A stretch of DNA of 64,000 nt from Pseudomonas sp. Irchel s3h14 (GTDB lineage Bacteria > Pseudomonadota > Gammaproteobacteria > Pseudomonadales > Pseudomonadaceae): positions 212,987-276,986 of the forward strand of contig NZ_FYDJ01000003.1 in NCBI RefSeq assembly GCF_900187425.1, read 5' to 3'. The notes under the pieces were generated by a model. It ran no database searches. It saw nothing but the letters and a program-made list of their open reading frames with translations, and was not told the origin of the DNA. This document shows, in pieces, positions 6,324 through 64,000 of the stretch (within the stretch, counting starts at the first letter, position 1; each line of letters opens with the position of its first letter). The position numbers were made by a program, and so were the translations under genes.

Positions 6324-7072
6324 GGCGCGCTCTGCTGATCAAGTGCTTCGCGAATACGCCGCACGGCGGCTACCGAACTGGCATTGTCGCCGTGTACGCA
6401 AAGGGTGTTGGCTTGCAGGTGCAAGGCACTGCCATCGCTGGCAGTGAGGTTGCCGCCGCGGGCAATGGTCAGCGCCTGTTCGATGATCGTTTCGGGATCG
6501 TGATGCACCGCGCCTGGCAGTTGCCGTGAGACCAGCATTCCCGCGCTGTCGTAAGCGCGATCGGCGAAGGCTTCGAACCACAGGGTCACGCCGTATTCAT
6601 CGCCCAATTGCTGGGCTGCGCTGTTGTCGCGAGTGGCCATCAACATCAGCGGTAACTGGCGATCATAGGACGCCACGGCCTGAAGCACGGCGCGCAATTG
6701 CGCCGGGTTGGCCATCATGTCGTTGTACATCGCGCCGTGTGGCTTGACGTAACTCACCCGCCCGCCCTGAGCCCGGCAAATGCCGTCGAGGGCACCGATC
6801 TGGTAATGCACAATGTCCTGAAGTTCCTGGGCGGTGTAGGCCATGGAACGGCGGCCGAAGCCGACCAGATCCTGATACGCCGGATGAGCACCGATCTGAA
6901 CCCCGTTGCTCAAGGCCAGGCTGACGGTCTTGCGCATGATGCTCGGGTCGCCGGCATGAAAACCGCAGGCGATGTTGGCGCAATCGATGAAGGGCATGAC
7001 CTCGGCGTCCAGACCCATGGTCCAGTTGCCGAAACTCTCGCCGATGTCGCAGTTCAATAGCAGGCGGCTCAC
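6320..7072 (-). CDS. pxpA: 5-oxoprolinase subunit A (LamB/YcsF family)
   Basis: This 250-residue protein starts [20 protein letters not shown], the signature of the YcsF/PxpA family, with [11 protein letters not shown] and [15 protein letters not shown] further in. I chose GTG 7072 because AAGGAG at 7081-7086 lies 8 nt upstream. The earlier in-frame GTG at 7081 would overlap that ribosome site. It is the first pxp subunit and lies 89 bp downstream of the MFS gene on the same strand. An AAnAAnAA motif lies just upstream of the ribosome site. Confidence 0.93.
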
Positions 7073-57150: not shown

Positions 57151-58536
57151 CTACCCGGCGATAAAACTCACCCGCACCTTCAACCCGGCCTGTTCGCCAT
57201 CGTGCAGGCTGATTTGAGCCAGGTGTGCGCGGCAGATCTCACCGACAATCGCCAGCCCCAACCCCGAACCGGCCACCTGCTGGTTGCGCCGGTAAAAGCG
57301 CTCGAATACCCGATCGCGCTCTTCAAGAGGAATGCCTGGGCCATCGTCCTCAACCTCCAACACGGCCGGTGCCGTGACCCGAAGAATCACGTTGCCACCC
57401 GACGGCGTGTGCGCCAGCGCGTTATCCACCAGATTGCTCAACAGTTCGTTCAACAGCGTTGGCTCGCCGCGCAACCACACCGGTTCGTCCGCTTCCAGCG
57501 CCAGCGCCACACCGCGTGCGTGGGCCAGCGGCGCCATGGCCATGCCGAGTTCGCGCGCCAGCTGACTGAGGTCAAGCAACTGCGCCCCGCCCTCGGCGAT
57601 GGCCCGGGCACCATTTTCGACCCGTGCCAGCGAGAGCAATTGATTGGCAAGGTGGGTCAATCGGTCCGTGCCTTGGGCGGCGGTTTCCAACGTATTGCGC
57701 CAGGTTTCCGGTTCGGTCGAGCGCAAACCCAGCTCCAGTCGTGCCTTCAGCGCCGCCAGGGGAGTACGCAGCTCATGGGCGGCATCGGCGATGAACTGCG
57801 CCTGACGCTCGAACTGCCCGCGCAGGCGCTCGGTGAAGTGATTGAGCGCGCGCACCAGTGGCCATAATTCGTGCTGCACTTCCACCAACGGCAACGGCCG
57901 CAGATCGTCCGACTGACGCTCTTCCACCGCGGTGCGCAAGCGTTCCAGCGGACGCAACGCGGCGCTGACCGCAAACCACACCAGCAACAACGCACCGATC
58001 GCCAGCATGCCCAAACGCAACAGAGTGTCCGCTGCAAGGCTGCGGGCCATGCTGACCCGCGCCTCATCGGTTTCCGCTACGCGGATTTCCGCCATGCCGT
58101 TCATGTTCGGCTCGCTCACGGGTTTGAGCAGGCTCACCACGCGTACGTTCTGCCCCTGGTACTTGGCGTTATAGAAACGCGCCAGTGCCGGATAGTCATC
58201 GGTGCGCGGGGTTCCCGGCGGCGGTGGCGGCAGATTTTCGTAGCCCGAGATCAGCTTCTGATTGATGTCGTTGACCAGGTAAAAAATCCGTCCCGCACTG
58301 TCGTAGGCGAAGGTGTCGAGGGCCACGTACGGCACGTCGGCGCTCAGCGTGCCGTCGCGCTGGGAGACGCCCGCCGCGATGGTCCGCGCCGAGGCTAGCA
58401 AGGTCCGGTCATAGGCGGTGTCGGCAGCTTCGCGACCGTTCCAGTAAGCGCTCAAACCACTCGCCAGCATCAACACCACCAGCAACAGCGCCAGATTCCA
58501 CAGCAACCGCCAGCGCAGGCTGCTGGGCTTATGCAT
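57151..58536 (-). CDS. tctE: Sensor histidine kinase TctE
   Basis: This 461-residue inner-membrane kinase has an N-terminal helix (about 11-31), a periplasmic sensor (about 33-170), a second helix (about 172-192) and a HAMP-like linker. The H-box is FIADAAHELRTPLAALK with His254, and the C-terminal ATPase has NLVDNALAHTP, DDGPGIP and GSGLGLAIV. It overlaps the tctD stop by 8 bp. It likely senses tricarboxylates; the genes next door are the transporter and porin. Confidence 0.93.
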   Translation of the reverse strand: MHKPSSLRWRLLWNLALLLVVLMLASGLSAYWNGREAADTAYDRTLLASARTIAAGVSQRDGTLSADVPYVALDTFAYDSAGRIFYLVNDINQKLISGYENLPPPPPGTPRTDDYPALARFYNAKYQGQNVRVVSLLKPVSEPNMNGMAEIRVAETDEARVSMARSLAADTLLRLGMLAIGALLLVWFAVSAALRPLERLRTAVEERQSDDLRPLPLVEVQHELWPLVRALNHFTERLRGQFERQAQFIADAAHELRTPLAALKARLELGLRSTEPETWRNTLETAAQGTDRLTHLANQLLSLARVENGARAIAEGGAQLLDLSQLARELGMAMAPLAHARGVALALEADEPVWLRGEPTLLNELLSNLVDNALAHTPSGGNVILRVTAPAVLEVEDDGPGIPLEERDRVFERFYRRNQQVAGSGLGLAIVGEICRAHLAQISLHDGEQAGLKVRVSFIAG

Positions 58537-59200
58537 CGCGGCTTTCCAGCAAGTAGCCGAGACCGCGGAAGGTCACGATGACCACCGGTTGGCCGTCGAG
58601 CTTTTTGCGCAGGCGATGGACATAGATCTCGATGGCGTCGGGGCTGGCTTCTTCGTCCAGGCCGAATACTTGCGAGGCCAGTTGCTCCTTGCTCATCACT
58701 CGACCGGGACGGGCGATCAGGGCTTCGAGCACTGCCTGCTCGCGGGAGGTCAGGGTCAGCAATTCTTCGCCGAGGGTGAAGCGCCGAGTGTCCAGGTCAT
58801 AGGCCAGTACGCCGCAGCGCTGCAGGCGTTCACCGCCGAGCACACTGCGGCGCAGCAAGGCTTTGACCCGGGCTTCGAGTTCGGTCAGTTCGAAAGGTTT
58901 GGCCAGGTAATCGTCAGCGCCGAGGTTCAGGCCGTGGACCCGATCCTTGACGTCGCTGCGGGCGGTCAACATCAACACCGGCAGGTTCTTGCCCCGCGCC
59001 CGCAGGCGCGCCAGCACTTCGAAGCCATCCATGCGCGGCAGGCCGACGTCGAGGATCGCCATGGCGTATTCCTCGCTGCTCAACGCCAGGTCGGCCGCCA
59101 CGCCGTCGTGCAGCACATCCACGGTCAACCCGGTGCTCTTGAGCGCCTGGGCGACACTTTCGGCGAGCTGCAGATGGTCTTCGACGAGCAGAACACGCAT
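58529..59200 (-). CDS. tctD: Response regulator TctD
   Basis: This 223-residue OmpR/PhoB-type regulator has a receiver domain with Asp51 in AMAILDVGLPRMDG and Lys in DDYLAKPFE, and a C-terminal winged helix (about 125-220) with RRFTLGEELLTLTSREQAVLEALI and the DNA helix AIEIYVHRLRKKLD. It controls the tct transport genes in response to TctE. The start lies 234 bp from opdH, divergent. Confidence 0.94.
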   Translation of the reverse strand: MRVLLVEDHLQLAESVAQALKSTGLTVDVLHDGVAADLALSSEEYAMAILDVGLPRMDGFEVLARLRARGKNLPVLMLTARSDVKDRVHGLNLGADDYLAKPFELTELEARVKALLRRSVLGGERLQRCGVLAYDLDTRRFTLGEELLTLTSREQAVLEALIARPGRVMSKEQLASQVFGLDEEASPDAIEIYVHRLRKKLDGQPVVIVTFRGLGYLLESRDA

Positions 59201-59288
59201 GGATCTTTACCTCATTCAGGGATGGTCGACGCCATTCTTTGGCGCGGAGTTTACAGCCGCAACCGCCGCTGTGAAGCCCGAAAACCGT

Positions 59289-59321
59289 GAAAGTCAGCTG
59301 AAAGGTTAGCGAAAGGTTGGC
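59289..59321. promoter_or_regulatory. Three tandem 11-bp direct repeats, candidate TctD boxes
   Basis: GAAAGTCAGCT (59289-59299), GAAAGGTTAGC (59300-59310) and GAAAGGTTGGC (59311-59321) follow each other without gaps. The second and third differ at one position. OmpR/PhoB-type regulators bind 11-bp direct repeats, and this array lies 114 bp upstream of the opdH start. Confidence 0.65.
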
Positions 59322-59378
59322 CGGTTAGAGTCCAGCCACGGACAGTTTCGACTGCCCGTCGCTACCGCACATAGCGTA

Positions 59379-59403
59379 CGAAAAACGCCTCGAAGCGTTT
59401 TCG
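59379..59403 (+). promoter_or_regulatory. Leader hairpin upstream of opdH
   Basis: cgaaaaacgc and gcgttttcg pair (one bulged A) around cctcgaa-type loop, 32 nt before the opdH start and just before the CA motif. It could expose or protect the ribosome site in the leader RNA. Confidence 0.4.
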
Positions 59404-59405
59404 CC

Positions 59406-59419
59406 AATAAGAACAATAA
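59406..59419 (+). promoter_or_regulatory. Hfq/Crc-type CA motif upstream of opdH
   Basis: AATAAGAACAATAA contains three overlapping perfect AAnAAnAA octamers (59406-59413, 59409-59416 and 59412-59419) ending 2 nt before the CGGAG ribosome site. This is the usual place for Hfq/Crc binding to repress translation. Confidence 0.55.
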
Positions 59420-59434
59420 ACGGAGTACTTCAAG

Positions 59435-60727
59435 ATGCTGTCCATGCAGCTACAGGCTTGCCCGCCTGCTCGCTTTTCCCGCCTCAGCCACACCGCCCTT
59501 GCCAGCGCCGCCGCCCTCGCCGGCTTTTCGCCGTTGAGCCAGGCAGCCTTCTTCGAAGACAGTACGGCAACCCTCGAAACCCGCAACATGTATTTCAACC
59601 GCGACTTTCGCGACGGTACCAGCGCCCAGCAATCCAAGCGGGACGAATGGGCTCAGGGGTTCATGCTCAACCTGCAATCGGGTTACACCGACGGCACCGT
59701 GGGGTTCGGTGTCGATGCGCTGGGCATGCTGGGGGTCAAACTCGATTCAAGTCCGGATCGCACTGGTACCGGCCTGTTGCCGACCCATGACGACGGTCGC
59801 GCGGCGGATGAATATTCCAAGCTCGGCCTGACCGGTAAAGTAAAAATCTCCGCCACGGAACTTAAAATCGGCAGCCTGATTCCGGAACTGCCGATCCTCA
59901 AGGCCAACGACGGGCGCATCCTGCCGCAGACCTTCGAAGGCGGCCTGCTGACCTCCAAAGAGATCAAGAACCTGACCTTCACCGGCGGGCGTCTGGAGAA
60001 AGCCAAGGACCGCGACAGCACCGACTTCGAGGACATCGCCCTCAACAACAAGAACAGCCGCTTTGCTGGTACCGCAGCCGGCAAGCATTTCGACTTTGGC
60101 GGCGTGGACTACAAGTTCACCGACAAGATCACCGGCAGCTACCACTTCGCCCAACTCGATGAGGTCTATAACCAGCACTTCCTCGGCATGGTGGCCTCGG
60201 AAAAATTCGGCCCCGGCACTTTCGGCACCGATCTGCGCCTGGCCATCAGTGATGACCAGGGCGCGGCCCGTGGCGGCAATATCGACAACAAATCCCTCAA
60301 CGGCTTGGTGAGCTACGCCTTGAGCGGGCATAAATTCAGCGCCGGCTATCAGCACATGTCCGGCGACAGCGCGTTCCCTTATGTCGATGGCAGTGACCCG
60401 TACCTGGTCAACTTCGTTCAGATCAACGACTTTGCCGGCGCCGAAGAACGTTCCTGGCAGGCACGTTACGACTATGACTTCGCCAAACTCGGCATTCCGG
60501 GTCTGAGCTTCATGAGCCGTTACCTGAGCGGCGACAACATCAAGCTCAAGAACGGTGACGAAGGCAAAGAGTGGGAACGCAACACCGAGATCAAATACGT
60601 CGTACAAAGCGGCGCGCTCAAGGATGTCGCCGTGCGCCTGCGTAATGCCACTTACCGCTCCAACTACTCCGCTCGCGATGCCGATGAAGTGCGTCTGCTG
60701 GTGAGCTATAGCGTTGCCCTTTGGTAA
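59435..60727 (+). CDS. opdH: OprD-family tricarboxylate porin OpdH
   Basis: This 430-residue outer-membrane porin has a long signal region (about 1-38, ending LSQA) and a barrel that ends VSYSVALW, with the terminal aromatic residue. It has the OprD start FFEDSTATLETRNMYFNRDFRDG. OpdH takes up cis-aconitate and similar tricarboxylates in P. aeruginosa. The gene order opdH-tctC-tctB-tctA supports the assignment. Confidence 0.9.
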   Translation: MLSMQLQACPPARFSRLSHTALASAAALAGFSPLSQAAFFEDSTATLETRNMYFNRDFRDGTSAQQSKRDEWAQGFMLNLQSGYTDGTVGFGVDALGMLGVKLDSSPDRTGTGLLPTHDDGRAADEYSKLGLTGKVKISATELKIGSLIPELPILKANDGRILPQTFEGGLLTSKEIKNLTFTGGRLEKAKDRDSTDFEDIALNNKNSRFAGTAAGKHFDFGGVDYKFTDKITGSYHFAQLDEVYNQHFLGMVASEKFGPGTFGTDLRLAISDDQGAARGGNIDNKSLNGLVSYALSGHKFSAGYQHMSGDSAFPYVDGSDPYLVNFVQINDFAGAEERSWQARYDYDFAKLGIPGLSFMSRYLSGDNIKLKNGDEGKEWERNTEIKYVVQSGALKDVAVRLRNATYRSNYSARDADEVRLLVSYSVALW

Positions 60728-60738
60728 ACATCACGTTC

Positions 60739-60749
60739 AATAACAATAA
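60739..60749 (+). promoter_or_regulatory. Hfq/Crc-type CA motif upstream of tctC
   Basis: AATAACAATAA contains two overlapping AAnAAnAA octamers (60739-60746 and 60742-60749), about 22 nt before the tctC start and 11 nt before its GGAG ribosome site. It repeats the layout seen at opdH. Confidence 0.5.
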
Positions 60750-60770
60750 TGAATGCCCGTGGAGACTCAA

Positions 60771-61748
60771 ATGAACTTATCACTGCGTAAAGTTGCTCTC
60801 GCCGCCAGCTGTGTACTGTTTGCCAGCCAATTGATGGCCGAACCGAAACGCCCGGAGTGCATCGCCCCGGCCTCGCCAGGCGGCGGTTTCGACCTGACCT
60901 GCAAACTGGCGCAAAGCGCGCTGGTGAATCAGAAACTGCTGACCAAACCGATGCGCGTGACCTACATGCCCGGCGGTGTCGGCGCGGTGGCGTACAACGC
61001 GGTGGTCGCTCAGCGTCCGGCCGACGCTGGTACGCTGGTAGCGTGGTCCAGCGGTTCGCTGTTGAACCTGGCCCAAGGCAAGTTCGGCCGTTTTGATGAA
61101 AATGCCGTGCGCTGGCTGGCGGCGGTTGGAACAAGCTACGGCGCCATCGCGGTGAAAAGCGATTCGCCTTACAAGAACCTGGACGATCTGGTTCAGGCGT
61201 TGAAGAAAGATCCGAGCAAAGTGGTGATCGGCTCCGGCGGCACCGTCGGCAGCCAGGACTGGATGCAGACCGCCCTGATCGCCAAGGCTGCCGGGATCAA
61301 CCCGCGCGACCTGCGTTACGTCGCCCTCGAAGGCGGCGGTGAAATCGCCACCGCCCTGCTCGGCGGCCACATCCAGGTCGGCAGCACCGACATCTCCGAC
61401 TCCATGCCGCACATCCAGAGCGGTGACATGCGCCTGCTGGCCGTGTTCTCCGAGAAGCGTCTGGACGAGCCGGAAATGAAAGACATCCCGACCGCCAAAG
61501 AGCAAGGCTACGACATCGTCTGGCCAGTGGTTCGCGGCTTCTATCTCGGGCCAAAGGTCAGCGACGAAGACTACGCCTGGTGGAAAGACGCTTTCGACAA
61601 GCTGCTGGCTTCCGAAGAGTTCGCCAAGTTGCGCGATCAGCGTGAACTGTTCCCGTTCGCCATGACCGGCCCGGAGCTGGACACCTACGTGAAGAAGCAG
61701 GTCACGGACTACAAAGTGCTGGCCAAAGAGTTCGGCCTGATTCAGTGA
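60771..61748 (+). CDS. tctC: Tricarboxylate-binding protein TctC
   Basis: This 325-residue periplasmic substrate-binding protein has a signal peptide (ending QLMA) and the family motifs CIAPASPGGGFDLTCKL, KPMRVTYMPGGVGAVAYN and SSGSLLNLAQGKFG. It delivers citrate or similar acids to TctAB. ATG 60771 precedes the signal peptide, with GGAG 6 nt upstream. Confidence 0.94.
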   Translation: MNLSLRKVALAASCVLFASQLMAEPKRPECIAPASPGGGFDLTCKLAQSALVNQKLLTKPMRVTYMPGGVGAVAYNAVVAQRPADAGTLVAWSSGSLLNLAQGKFGRFDENAVRWLAAVGTSYGAIAVKSDSPYKNLDDLVQALKKDPSKVVIGSGGTVGSQDWMQTALIAKAAGINPRDLRYVALEGGGEIATALLGGHIQVGSTDISDSMPHIQSGDMRLLAVFSEKRLDEPEMKDIPTAKEQGYDIVWPVVRGFYLGPKVSDEDYAWWKDAFDKLLASEEFAKLRDQRELFPFAMTGPELDTYVKKQVTDYKVLAKEFGLIQ

Positions 61749-61807
61749 TCGCCTCTGTCTAGCGGCTGCGGCCCCCGTTCTGGAGGGCTGCGGCACAGGA
61801 GTTTCCC

Positions 61808-62266
61808 ATGCTCTTACAACGCATTTTTGCTTCGATGCTGTTGGTGGCCTGTCTCAGCCTGGTGCTGATGGCCTGGCCCTACCAGGCACCTTTTTCCTAC
61901 GAACCAATCGGCCCACGAGCCTTTCCCCTGTTGATGCTGGGGCTGATGGGCCTGGGGTTGGTTTACATGGTGTATCGCCCTTCGCCGATCAAACACACCG
62001 ATGAAGATCCGCCGATGGATCGCGAAACCCTGAACAAAATCGGTATTTGCGTGCTGTTGTTGCTGATCTTTGCCGGGCTGTTCGAACCCCTGGGTTTCAT
62101 CCTCAGCAGCATGCTGATTGGCATTCCGATGGCGCGCCTGTACGGCGGACGCTGGTTGCCGAGCGCGGTGATCATCAGCCTGATGAGCATCGGTCTGTAC
62201 CTGCTGTTCGACAAAGTCATGGACGTGCCACTGCCTCTGGGCCTGCTCGACGTTCTGGAGAACTGA
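61808..62266 (+). CDS. tctB: Small membrane subunit TctB
   Basis: This 152-residue membrane protein has four helices; the last pair is LPSAVIISLMSIGLYLLFDKVMDVPLPLG. It is the small permease subunit of the TTT transporter. CAGGAG precedes the ATG. The stop is 1 bp from the start of tctA. Confidence 0.92.
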   Translation: MLLQRIFASMLLVACLSLVLMAWPYQAPFSYEPIGPRAFPLLMLGLMGLGLVYMVYRPSPIKHTDEDPPMDRETLNKIGICVLLLLIFAGLFEPLGFILSSMLIGIPMARLYGGRWLPSAVIISLMSIGLYLLFDKVMDVPLPLGLLDVLEN

Positions 62267-62267
62267 T

Positions 62268-63782
62268 ATGGATACGCTTGGTTATTTGAGTCACGGCTTC
62301 GGCGTCGCATTGACCCCTTACAACCTGGTGACCGCACTCAGCGGCACCCTGATCGGCACCGTCGTCGGCCTGCTCCCCGGCCTGGGTCCGATCAACGGCG
62401 TGGCGTTGCTGATCCCGATCGCCTTCGCCCTCGGCCTGCCACCGGAGTCGGCGTTGATCCTGCTGGCCGCGGTTTATCTGGGTTGCGAATACGGCGGCCG
62501 GATCAGTTCGATTCTGTTGAACATTCCGGGCGAAGCCTCCACCGTGATGACCACCCTCGATGGCTACCCGATGGCCCGTCAAGGGATGGCCGGGGTTGCG
62601 TTATCGCTTTCGGCGTGGAGTTCGTTCATCGGCGCCTTCATTGCGACCTGCGGGATGGTGGTGTTCGCACCGATTCTGGCGAAATGGGCGATTGCCTTCG
62701 GTCCGGCGGAATATTTCGTACTGATGGTGTTCGCGATTGTCTGCCTCGGCGGCATGGCTGGCGATCGACCGCTCAAGACGTTTATTGCGGCGCTGATCGG
62801 TCTGTTCCTGTCGACGGTCGGCATTGATGCCAACAGCGGTGTCTACCGCTTCACCGGTGACAACATCCACCTCACCGATGGCATTCAGTTCGTGGTGCTG
62901 GTGCTGGGTCTGTTCTCGATCAGTGAAATTCTCCTGCTGCTGGAAAAAACCCACCGTGGCCAGGAAGCGTTCCAAGCCACCGGTCGCATGATGTTCAACT
63001 TCAAGGAGGCCGCTTCGGTGTTCTGGGTGAACATACGTTGCGGTGTGCTCGGCTTCATCATGGGCGTGCTGCCCGGTGCTGGCGCGACACTGGCCAGCGC
63101 CGTGGCTTACATGACCGAGAAACGTATCGCGGGCCCAAGCGGAAAATTCGGACAAGGCGACAAGCGTGGTCTCGCCGCTCCGGAAACCGCCATCGGCGCT
63201 GAAGCCTGCGGCGCTCTGGTGCCGATGCTGACGCTGGGTGTTCCGGGTTCGGGCACGACGGCGGTGATGATCGGCGCACTGTCGCTGTACAACATCACCC
63301 CTGGCCCTCTGCTGTTTCAACAGCAACCGGACATCGTCTGGGGCCTGATCGCTTCGTTGTTTGTCGCCAACATCATGCTGGTGATCCTCAACATCCCAAT
63401 GATCCGCATCTTCACCCGCATCCTCGCCGTGCCGAACTGGGCGCTGGTGCCGATGATCGCGATCATTACCGCCATCGGCGTTTTCGCGGTGCATGCCACC
63501 ACCTTCGACCTGTTCCTGATGATCGGCATCGGCATCTTCGGCTACATTTTGCGTAAGCTGGATTTTCCGTTGTCGCCAGTGTTACTGGGCTTCATCCTCG
63601 GAGGCTTGATGGAACAGAACCTGCGCCGAGCCTTGTCGATCTCCAACGGTTCGCTGGAGATTCTCTGGTCGAGCGGGATCACCATGGGTGTCTGGGCGTT
63701 GATCGTCGTGATGCTGCTGGTGCCGATCCTGCGGATCTGGCGCAAACGTTCGGTCGCCCGGCGCGTTATCGCCGATGTCTGA
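62268..63782 (+). CDS. tctA: Large membrane subunit TctA
   Basis: This 504-residue permease has about 12 helices. The family motifs are GTLIGTVVGLLPGLGPINGVALLIP near the N-terminus and GVLPGAGATLASAVAYMTEKR and LVPMLTLGVPGSGTTAVMIGAL in the middle. It imports tricarboxylates with TctB and TctC using the ion gradient. It overlaps the next gene by 8 bp. Confidence 0.95.
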   Translation: MDTLGYLSHGFGVALTPYNLVTALSGTLIGTVVGLLPGLGPINGVALLIPIAFALGLPPESALILLAAVYLGCEYGGRISSILLNIPGEASTVMTTLDGYPMARQGMAGVALSLSAWSSFIGAFIATCGMVVFAPILAKWAIAFGPAEYFVLMVFAIVCLGGMAGDRPLKTFIAALIGLFLSTVGIDANSGVYRFTGDNIHLTDGIQFVVLVLGLFSISEILLLLEKTHRGQEAFQATGRMMFNFKEAASVFWVNIRCGVLGFIMGVLPGAGATLASAVAYMTEKRIAGPSGKFGQGDKRGLAAPETAIGAEACGALVPMLTLGVPGSGTTAVMIGALSLYNITPGPLLFQQQPDIVWGLIASLFVANIMLVILNIPMIRIFTRILAVPNWALVPMIAIITAIGVFAVHATTFDLFLMIGIGIFGYILRKLDFPLSPVLLGFILGGLMEQNLRRALSISNGSLEILWSSGITMGVWALIVVMLLVPILRIWRKRSVARRVIADV

Positions 63783-64000
63783 TCGAACACCCTTCAAAGC
63801 CTGGTGGGGAACCCCGCTGGTCGGTCTGCTGGGCGGTTACCTGGCCAGCCAGATCGGCTGGCCACTGCCGTGGATGGTCGGCTCGTTGCTGGCGATCATC
63901 CTGGTGCGTTGCCTGACACCCTGGCAATTGGCGGAAATCCCTGGCGGCCGCAAGTGCGGCCAGTGGATTGTCGGCATCGGCATCGGCCTGCACTTCACCC
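63775..64000 (+). CDS. AbrB-family (ammonia monooxygenase-like) membrane protein, 5' part
   Basis: The first 75 codons are present: MSDRTPFKAWWGTPLVGLLG, then helices of the AbrB/AmoA-like integral-membrane family (SQIGWPLPWMVGSLLAIILV; GGRKCGQWIVGIGIGLHFT). The family is distinct from the small AbrB DNA-binding proteins and its function is unclear. It overlaps the tctA stop by 8 bp, suggesting it belongs to the tct operon. The gene continues past the window. Confidence 0.8.
   Translation, partial: MSDRTPFKAWWGTPLVGLLGGYLASQIGWPLPWMVGSLLAIILVRCLTPWQLAEIPGGRKCGQWIVGIGIGLHFT

Follow-up and report, generated by a model that had tools for sequence, protein, structure and literature searches.

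In Pseudomonas aeruginosa PAO1, opdH (PA0755) was described as a CbrAB/Crc target with a CA motif near its ribosome site, listed as AAGAACAA at -25 to -18, and a crc mutant had 5.9-fold more opdH transcript in LB and 2.05-fold more in succinate medium (PMC3480352). No decrease of this transcript was seen in crcZ or cbrB mutants (PMC3480352), contrary to what simple CrcZ relief predicts. The PAO1 studies disagree on the opdH mRNA, since in the other one the log2 change in the crc mutant was -0.5 for the transcript and 2.54 for OpdH protein (PMC6235884). Post-transcriptional derepression in that mutant was also reported for tctC (PA0754), with log2 values of 2.8 for the protein and 0.06 for the transcript (PMC6235884). 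In P. putida, tctC (PP_1418) was a predicted Crc target with an A-rich site, and its protein was raised 3.4-fold in a crc mutant (PMC3003667). In the passages on PA0754 and PP_1418, tctC does not appear as a further site of an already targeted mRNA. A 2024 paper listed the evidence for Crc control of the whole operon and showed that a lasR mutant uses citrate under CbrB-Crc control (PMC10865840). The closest structures are the Hfq-Crc assemblies on amiE, estA and rbsB, with ARN-rich motifs at the translation start and hairpins on the proximal side of Hfq (PMC9890229). Crc control of the opdH-tct operon is mostly known already and has been proposed before. What this analysis adds is that the opdH site is kept throughout the family and the tctC site frequently, and that a stem-loop recurs beside the opdH site.

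The window, the whole stretch of 64,000 nucleotides that was analysed, is part of a 6.7-Mb genome, and Pseudomonas mandelii and P. frederiksbergensis (98% identity) are among the closest named organisms in the best 80 of 484 opdH relatives. On the plus strand, opdH (59435-60727), encoding an outer-membrane porin of the OprD family (Pfam PF03573), is followed by tctC for a periplasmic tricarboxylate-binding protein (60771-61748, PF03401), tctB (61808-62266, PF07331) and tctA (62268-63782, PF01970). On the minus strand, Pfam domains identified a tctD-like response regulator of the OmpR family (58529-59200), divergent from opdH, and a tctE-like sensor kinase with 2CSK_N, HAMP, HisKA and HATPase_c (57151-58536). 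The start of tctC was set at 60771, which is preceded by a ribosome site; the list of open reading frames uses an upstream in-frame ATG at 60753. opdH and tctC have the same orientation with 43 nt between them, no terminator-like site was listed between them in the sequence scan, and opdH-tctC-tctB-tctA would form one shared mRNA.

The CA motif of opdH (AATAAGAACAATAA, 59406-59419, plus strand) consists of three overlapping AAnAAnAA octamers and occurs once in the 6.7-Mb genome. It is followed by one base, the ribosome-binding site CGGAG (59421-59425) and the ATG at 59435, with 15 nt from motif to ATG, so that it covers -29 to -16 and differs from the motif listed for the other species, PAO1. 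The tctC motif (AATAACAATAA, 60739-60749, plus strand) has two overlapping octamers, followed by 11 nt, the ribosome-binding site GGAG (60761-60764) and the ATG at 60771, with 21 nt from motif to ATG. The longest run of consecutive ARN triplets is five in opdH and four in tctC. Overlapping perfect octamers in both leaders had been claimed by the sequence-only reading and were found as described; strictly speaking, only the opdH motif lies immediately before its ribosome site, and that of tctC is 11 nt further up. Both leaders thus combine the AAnAAnAA motif with closeness to the ribosome-binding site, as in known Hfq/Crc targets. Two further overlapping octamers lie within the opdH coding sequence (60044-60054, AACAACAAGAA) and may reflect codon usage only. 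By eye, an ATG overlapping the tctC CA motif starts a frame of 13 codons (60749-60790), which overlaps the tctC start out of frame.

Across both strands of the whole window, 40 octamers were counted; dinucleotide shuffles averaged 16.75, and 0 of 100 reached 40. Three octamers in register were found within the window only at 59406-59419. A better null is given by gene leaders, for which 397 were taken with a crude gene caller from about 464 kb of the window's genome (400 kb plus the window). With both studied leaders counted, an octamer was present at -45 to -1 in 13 of these 397 predicted leaders, two overlapping octamers in six and three in one, while the antisense strand of the same leaders gave three with an octamer. 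Because octamers are this rare among leaders, overlapping octamers in two adjacent genes are not expected by chance. Other predicted gene starts of the window with an octamer in the leader are at 7072 (-), 8448 (-), 8597 (+) and 16678 (+).

Conservation was followed in a close-relative set, made of the best 80 of 484 opdH relatives and the window. At -45 to -1, the octamer was present in every opdH leader of this set (81/81) and in 78/81 tctC leaders, and the three tctC misses (L044, L068 and L078) had near-motifs in its place. The tctB and tctA leaders of the window have no octamer; in the best 80 of 484 relatives it was found in 0/80 leaders each of tctB, tctA and tctE, where starts projected from tblastn were off a start codon in 4/80 for tctB and 2/80 for tctA, and the tctD leaders gave 1/81 with the window included. 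When only distinct leaders of close relatives were counted, 49/49 for opdH and 62/65 for tctC had the octamer, compared with 2.4 and 4.3 expected from mononucleotide shuffles. The opdH motif was almost invariant, with AATAAGAACAATAA in 37 of 40 distinct forms of the motif plus downstream sequence. A-rich sequence near ribosome sites is a common aid to initiation, and the two stretches could act as plain enhancers of translation or as standby sites for the ribosome, under selection for A-richness rather than for Hfq/Crc. This is a very improbable explanation of the pattern; against it stand the neighbouring leaders of the same locus, which are essentially free of the octamer, its presence in just 13/397 leaders, and the higher amounts of OpdH and TctC in the PAO1 crc mutant (PMC6235884).

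The spacer between opdH and tctC was 30 to 163 nt long in the close relatives; several of its forms look unrelated and some carry repeat-like inserts. A spacer this variable is the better conservation test, and the octamer by the ribosome site was kept through it in all but the three misses mentioned. In the longer spacers (e.g. L013, L020, L024, L039 and L048), a GATCGCAGCCTTCGGCAGCTCCTACA-like insert comes first and then the A-rich motif; we take this insert to resemble Pseudomonas REP elements. A promoter-like match (60721-60750, 9/12) overlaps the tctC motif and might give tctC an additional transcript of its own; two such matches lay in the scanned region, where shuffles averaged 0.4. The A-rich stretch could then serve as an internal promoter element (-10 AATAAT) instead of a site on the mRNA, yet most of the other spacer forms have no AATAAT there and still hold the AAnAAnAA octamer. 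It is thus the octamer and not the hexamer that is conserved, and a purely promoter role for the stretch is the least credible of the explanations considered, which are not mutually exclusive.

In the wider family, a tctC match was found in 148/198 genomes, and 110 loci were chosen among the matches listed, among them L085, which is the window's own genome, and further loci of the window type. Among these matches listed, opdH was directly upstream of tctC in 84/110 loci. Its motif was present in 83/84, and the single miss (L193) was scored because the script's start codon lay too far upstream, the motif being present there as well. The tctC motif was present in 51/84 of the loci with opdH upstream, leaving 33/84 without a perfect octamer, and in 22/26 loci without an OpdH match in the stretch read, again among the matches listed. 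Counted as distinct leaders against mononucleotide shuffles, the octamer was found in 74/75 for opdH (3.8 expected), 49/79 for tctC with opdH upstream (2.7 expected) and 14/18 for tctC without opdH upstream (0.8 expected). At least four ARN triplets were present in 71/75 distinct opdH leaders, while 46/79 distinct tctC leaders had only two or three. In one locus (L107), which may be P. aeruginosa, the opdH octamer is at -25, the place published for PAO1, and another octamer lies before tctC.

These counts give some weight to the possibility that opdH carries the sole true control point, so that blocked opdH translation would destabilise or prematurely end the shared mRNA and TctC would fall too, with a minor role for the tctC motif. 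Such an arrangement would agree with the near-universal, triplet-rich opdH motif beside a less frequent and poorer tctC octamer, and with the short, co-oriented and apparently terminator-free junction of the two genes. It is rather unlikely, however, in view of the tctC motif kept across a variable spacer in the window lineage (78/81, best 80 of 484 relatives plus the window) and before tctC genes that have no OpdH match upstream (22/26 among the matches listed). The flat tctC transcript of PAO1 with its raised protein (PMC6235884) does not look like mRNA decay either. In two family loci (L090 and L096), a leader of the opdH type, with repeats, hairpin and CA motif, stands directly before tctC and is flanked by tctD at its far end. 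OpdH relatives in the two genomes reach at most 50% and 48% identity; a probable history is the loss of opdH followed by use of its leader by tctC.

The window's genome encodes one protein matching Crc chains (4jg3, E 2.3e-163), one Hfq and two CrcZ-like RNAs, so the host has Hfq, Crc and a CrcZ-type RNA. In P. aeruginosa, Hfq CLIP-seq gave AAN repeats in 5' UTRs (PMC6890931). The sequence-only reading had also proposed a search for published Hfq CLIP peaks at both leaders; the main texts of three Hfq CLIP or RIP papers do not name opdH or tctC. Its Hfq/Crc interpretation as such is supported by the motif, its position, the conservation with negative-control leaders, the Hfq, Crc and CrcZ-like RNAs of the host and the published P. 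aeruginosa and P. putida data. The opdH-tctC-tctB-tctA mRNA is therefore a likely target of Hfq/Crc carbon catabolite repression at two separate sites, and control at two points, the porin and the binding protein, is plausible. The family tctC leaders that lack a perfect octamer behind opdH (33/84) and the promoter-like match over the tctC motif count against it. For the window strain, binding of Hfq/Crc, repression and independence of the two sites are inferred.

Hfq might instead work chiefly together with a small RNA or by way of mRNA stability, with Crc in a secondary role. The PAO1 opdH transcript, up in the crc mutant and not down in crcZ or cbrB mutants (PMC3480352), would fit this, as would the distinctive regulation by Hfq of the OprD-family genes oprD and opdP (PMC7264166). 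Against it, both PAO1 genes showed a Crc-dependent change of protein without a matching change of transcript (PMC6235884), and we consider a secondary role of Crc improbable. Under two-site Hfq/Crc repression, Hfq (by its distal face) and Crc would assemble on the A-rich motif beside the opdH ribosome site when a preferred carbon source is present, a second Hfq/Crc complex would form on the tctC motif, likewise next to a ribosome site, and the two complexes would separately block translation of porin and binding protein. When the preferred carbon runs out, CrcZ-type RNAs would titrate Hfq. Citrate induction through TctE-TctD would act above this Hfq/Crc layer, at the promoter. OpdH/TctABC citrate uptake and its CbrB-Crc control bear on cross-feeding and on the fitness of lasR mutants in P. 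aeruginosa (PMC10865840). If each key cistron has its own conserved control site, the locus would offer a simple two-site mRNA for asking why the porin and the binding protein are locked separately.

Upstream of opdH, three direct repeats of GAAAG with 11-bp spacing (59289, 59300 and 59311; 59289-59315, plus strand) are probably TctD boxes, at which TctD would act; the opdH promoter is reported to have a TctD motif, and opdH expression to depend on TctD (PMC4513871). The pattern GAAAGn6GAAAG was found in 152/165 opdH leaders, and in 136/165 a TA[GT]n[AG]T (TAGnAT-like) hexamer came 4-14 nt after the repeats, the window's leader being counted twice in both because the family sample holds the window's own genome. 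From this repeat-hexamer pattern in relatives, TAGAGT (59326-59331, plus strand) is the probable -10 element; the consensus promoter scan did not list it. The repeats and TAGAGT would place the transcription start near 59338, and the hairpins described below would then be inside the mRNA.

Two hairpins were noted in the opdH leader of the window, both on the plus strand. Hairpin 1 (59338-59359), a possible 5'-terminal stem-loop, was seen by eye from a recurring ACGG...CCGT pattern; it is absent from the RNAfold minimum for the window strain, and a hairpin in the matching place shows covariation in other lineages. Hairpin 2 (59379-59403), given by RNAfold and a stem scan, ends 2 nt before the CA motif. 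In the RNAfold ensemble the opdH motif of the window is 98% unpaired, and the ribosome site is mostly paired in the folded leader (mean 0.17 unpaired). The stem-loop would probably keep the motif single-stranded and may contact Hfq. It differs from the amiE, estA and rbsB assemblies in that the predicted hairpin lies directly 5' of the motif and recurs in the family.

An ungapped stem at most 8 nt from the motif beat at least 95% of 40 shuffles in 54/56 distinct leaders of the window lineage, which are near copies of one another, in 33/73 family leaders, a set that holds some window-type leaders, and in 4/111 tctC leaders. Folding energy does not set the 111-nt opdH region apart from shuffles (z -0.63), and only 13/56 and 24/70 leaders were in the best 5 of 100 shuffles. 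Compensatory change was seen in an alignment (A1) of 24 leaders from other lineages, selected from the 39 that share one loop class in a set of 73 distinct family leaders. RNAalifold gave two hairpins on A1, with compensatory changes in 8 of 9 pairs. For 14 named pairs in these 24 leaders, 89.2% of cells could pair compared with 73.9% in shuffles (0/500), and 64 cells had double changes compared with 20.9 (0/500); pairing dropped to 36-45% when the pairs were slid. Further standard pair types showed no excess in A1 (22 compared with 23.1 in shuffles, 414/500).

A model (R1) was built from A1, with the structure drawn from the fold of one leader (L168). Searched at E up to 1 against 45 sources outside A1, it matched 32 opdH leaders, as identified by coordinates, and gave five other weak matches. 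Among eight loci of the window lineage, L064 and L074 were matched weakly, and the model missed the window and the window's genome (G000). In the window lineage, hairpin 2 has almost invariant arms, and such changes as occur in them are not compensatory. The opdH-leader structure is thus well supported in other lineages, and, with uncompensated arms, unremarkable folding energy and the R1 miss, it is indicated in the window lineage by position, fold and conservation only. Hairpin 2 may, in this lineage, be a DNA operator only, to which the nearly constant arms and their uncompensated changes would also correspond.

Two other roles were considered for hairpin 2 and dropped. It was rejected as an intrinsic terminator because the plus-strand bases after it are A-rich and the scan placed no terminator-like site at this point. 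A pseudoknot of its GTGGT loop with ACCAC after the ribosome site, seen by eye in 17 leaders of one loop class, is not claimed, since both sides hardly vary, covariation therefore cannot test it, and the other lineages viewed by eye lack the pairing.

For the window (58500-64000), an Rfam search at E up to 1 gave one match (63258-63288), below the gathering score and far from the leader. Five further loci (L186, L168, L121, L107 and L149) gave two Rfam matches, both below the gathering score and away from the opdH leaders (L149 2439-2484 and L107 3082-3135). Among the papers listed by the literature search, none on opdH-leader hairpins stood out. A more tentative proposal is that the opdH 5' UTR could be a family-wide structured element outside Rfam, made of two stem-loops and a CA motif abutting the ribosome site, whose second stem-loop would offer the motif to Hfq/Crc and modulate the repression. 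It would also have been carried as a module to tctC where opdH was lost, and the mRNA would have two serial Hfq/Crc locks. The cryo-EM authors called the role of RNA structure in Hfq/Crc assembly 'puzzling' in places (PMC9890229), and the stem-loop beside the opdH site would provide a case for this role.

Of the weaker genome matches of R1, those in L227 and L228 appear to be inside coding sequence. The match in L226 (G126 C1:3069268-3069329, E 8.6e-4) is in a leader before a transporter-like ORF, and this leader has a hairpin-like stretch and an A-rich motif.
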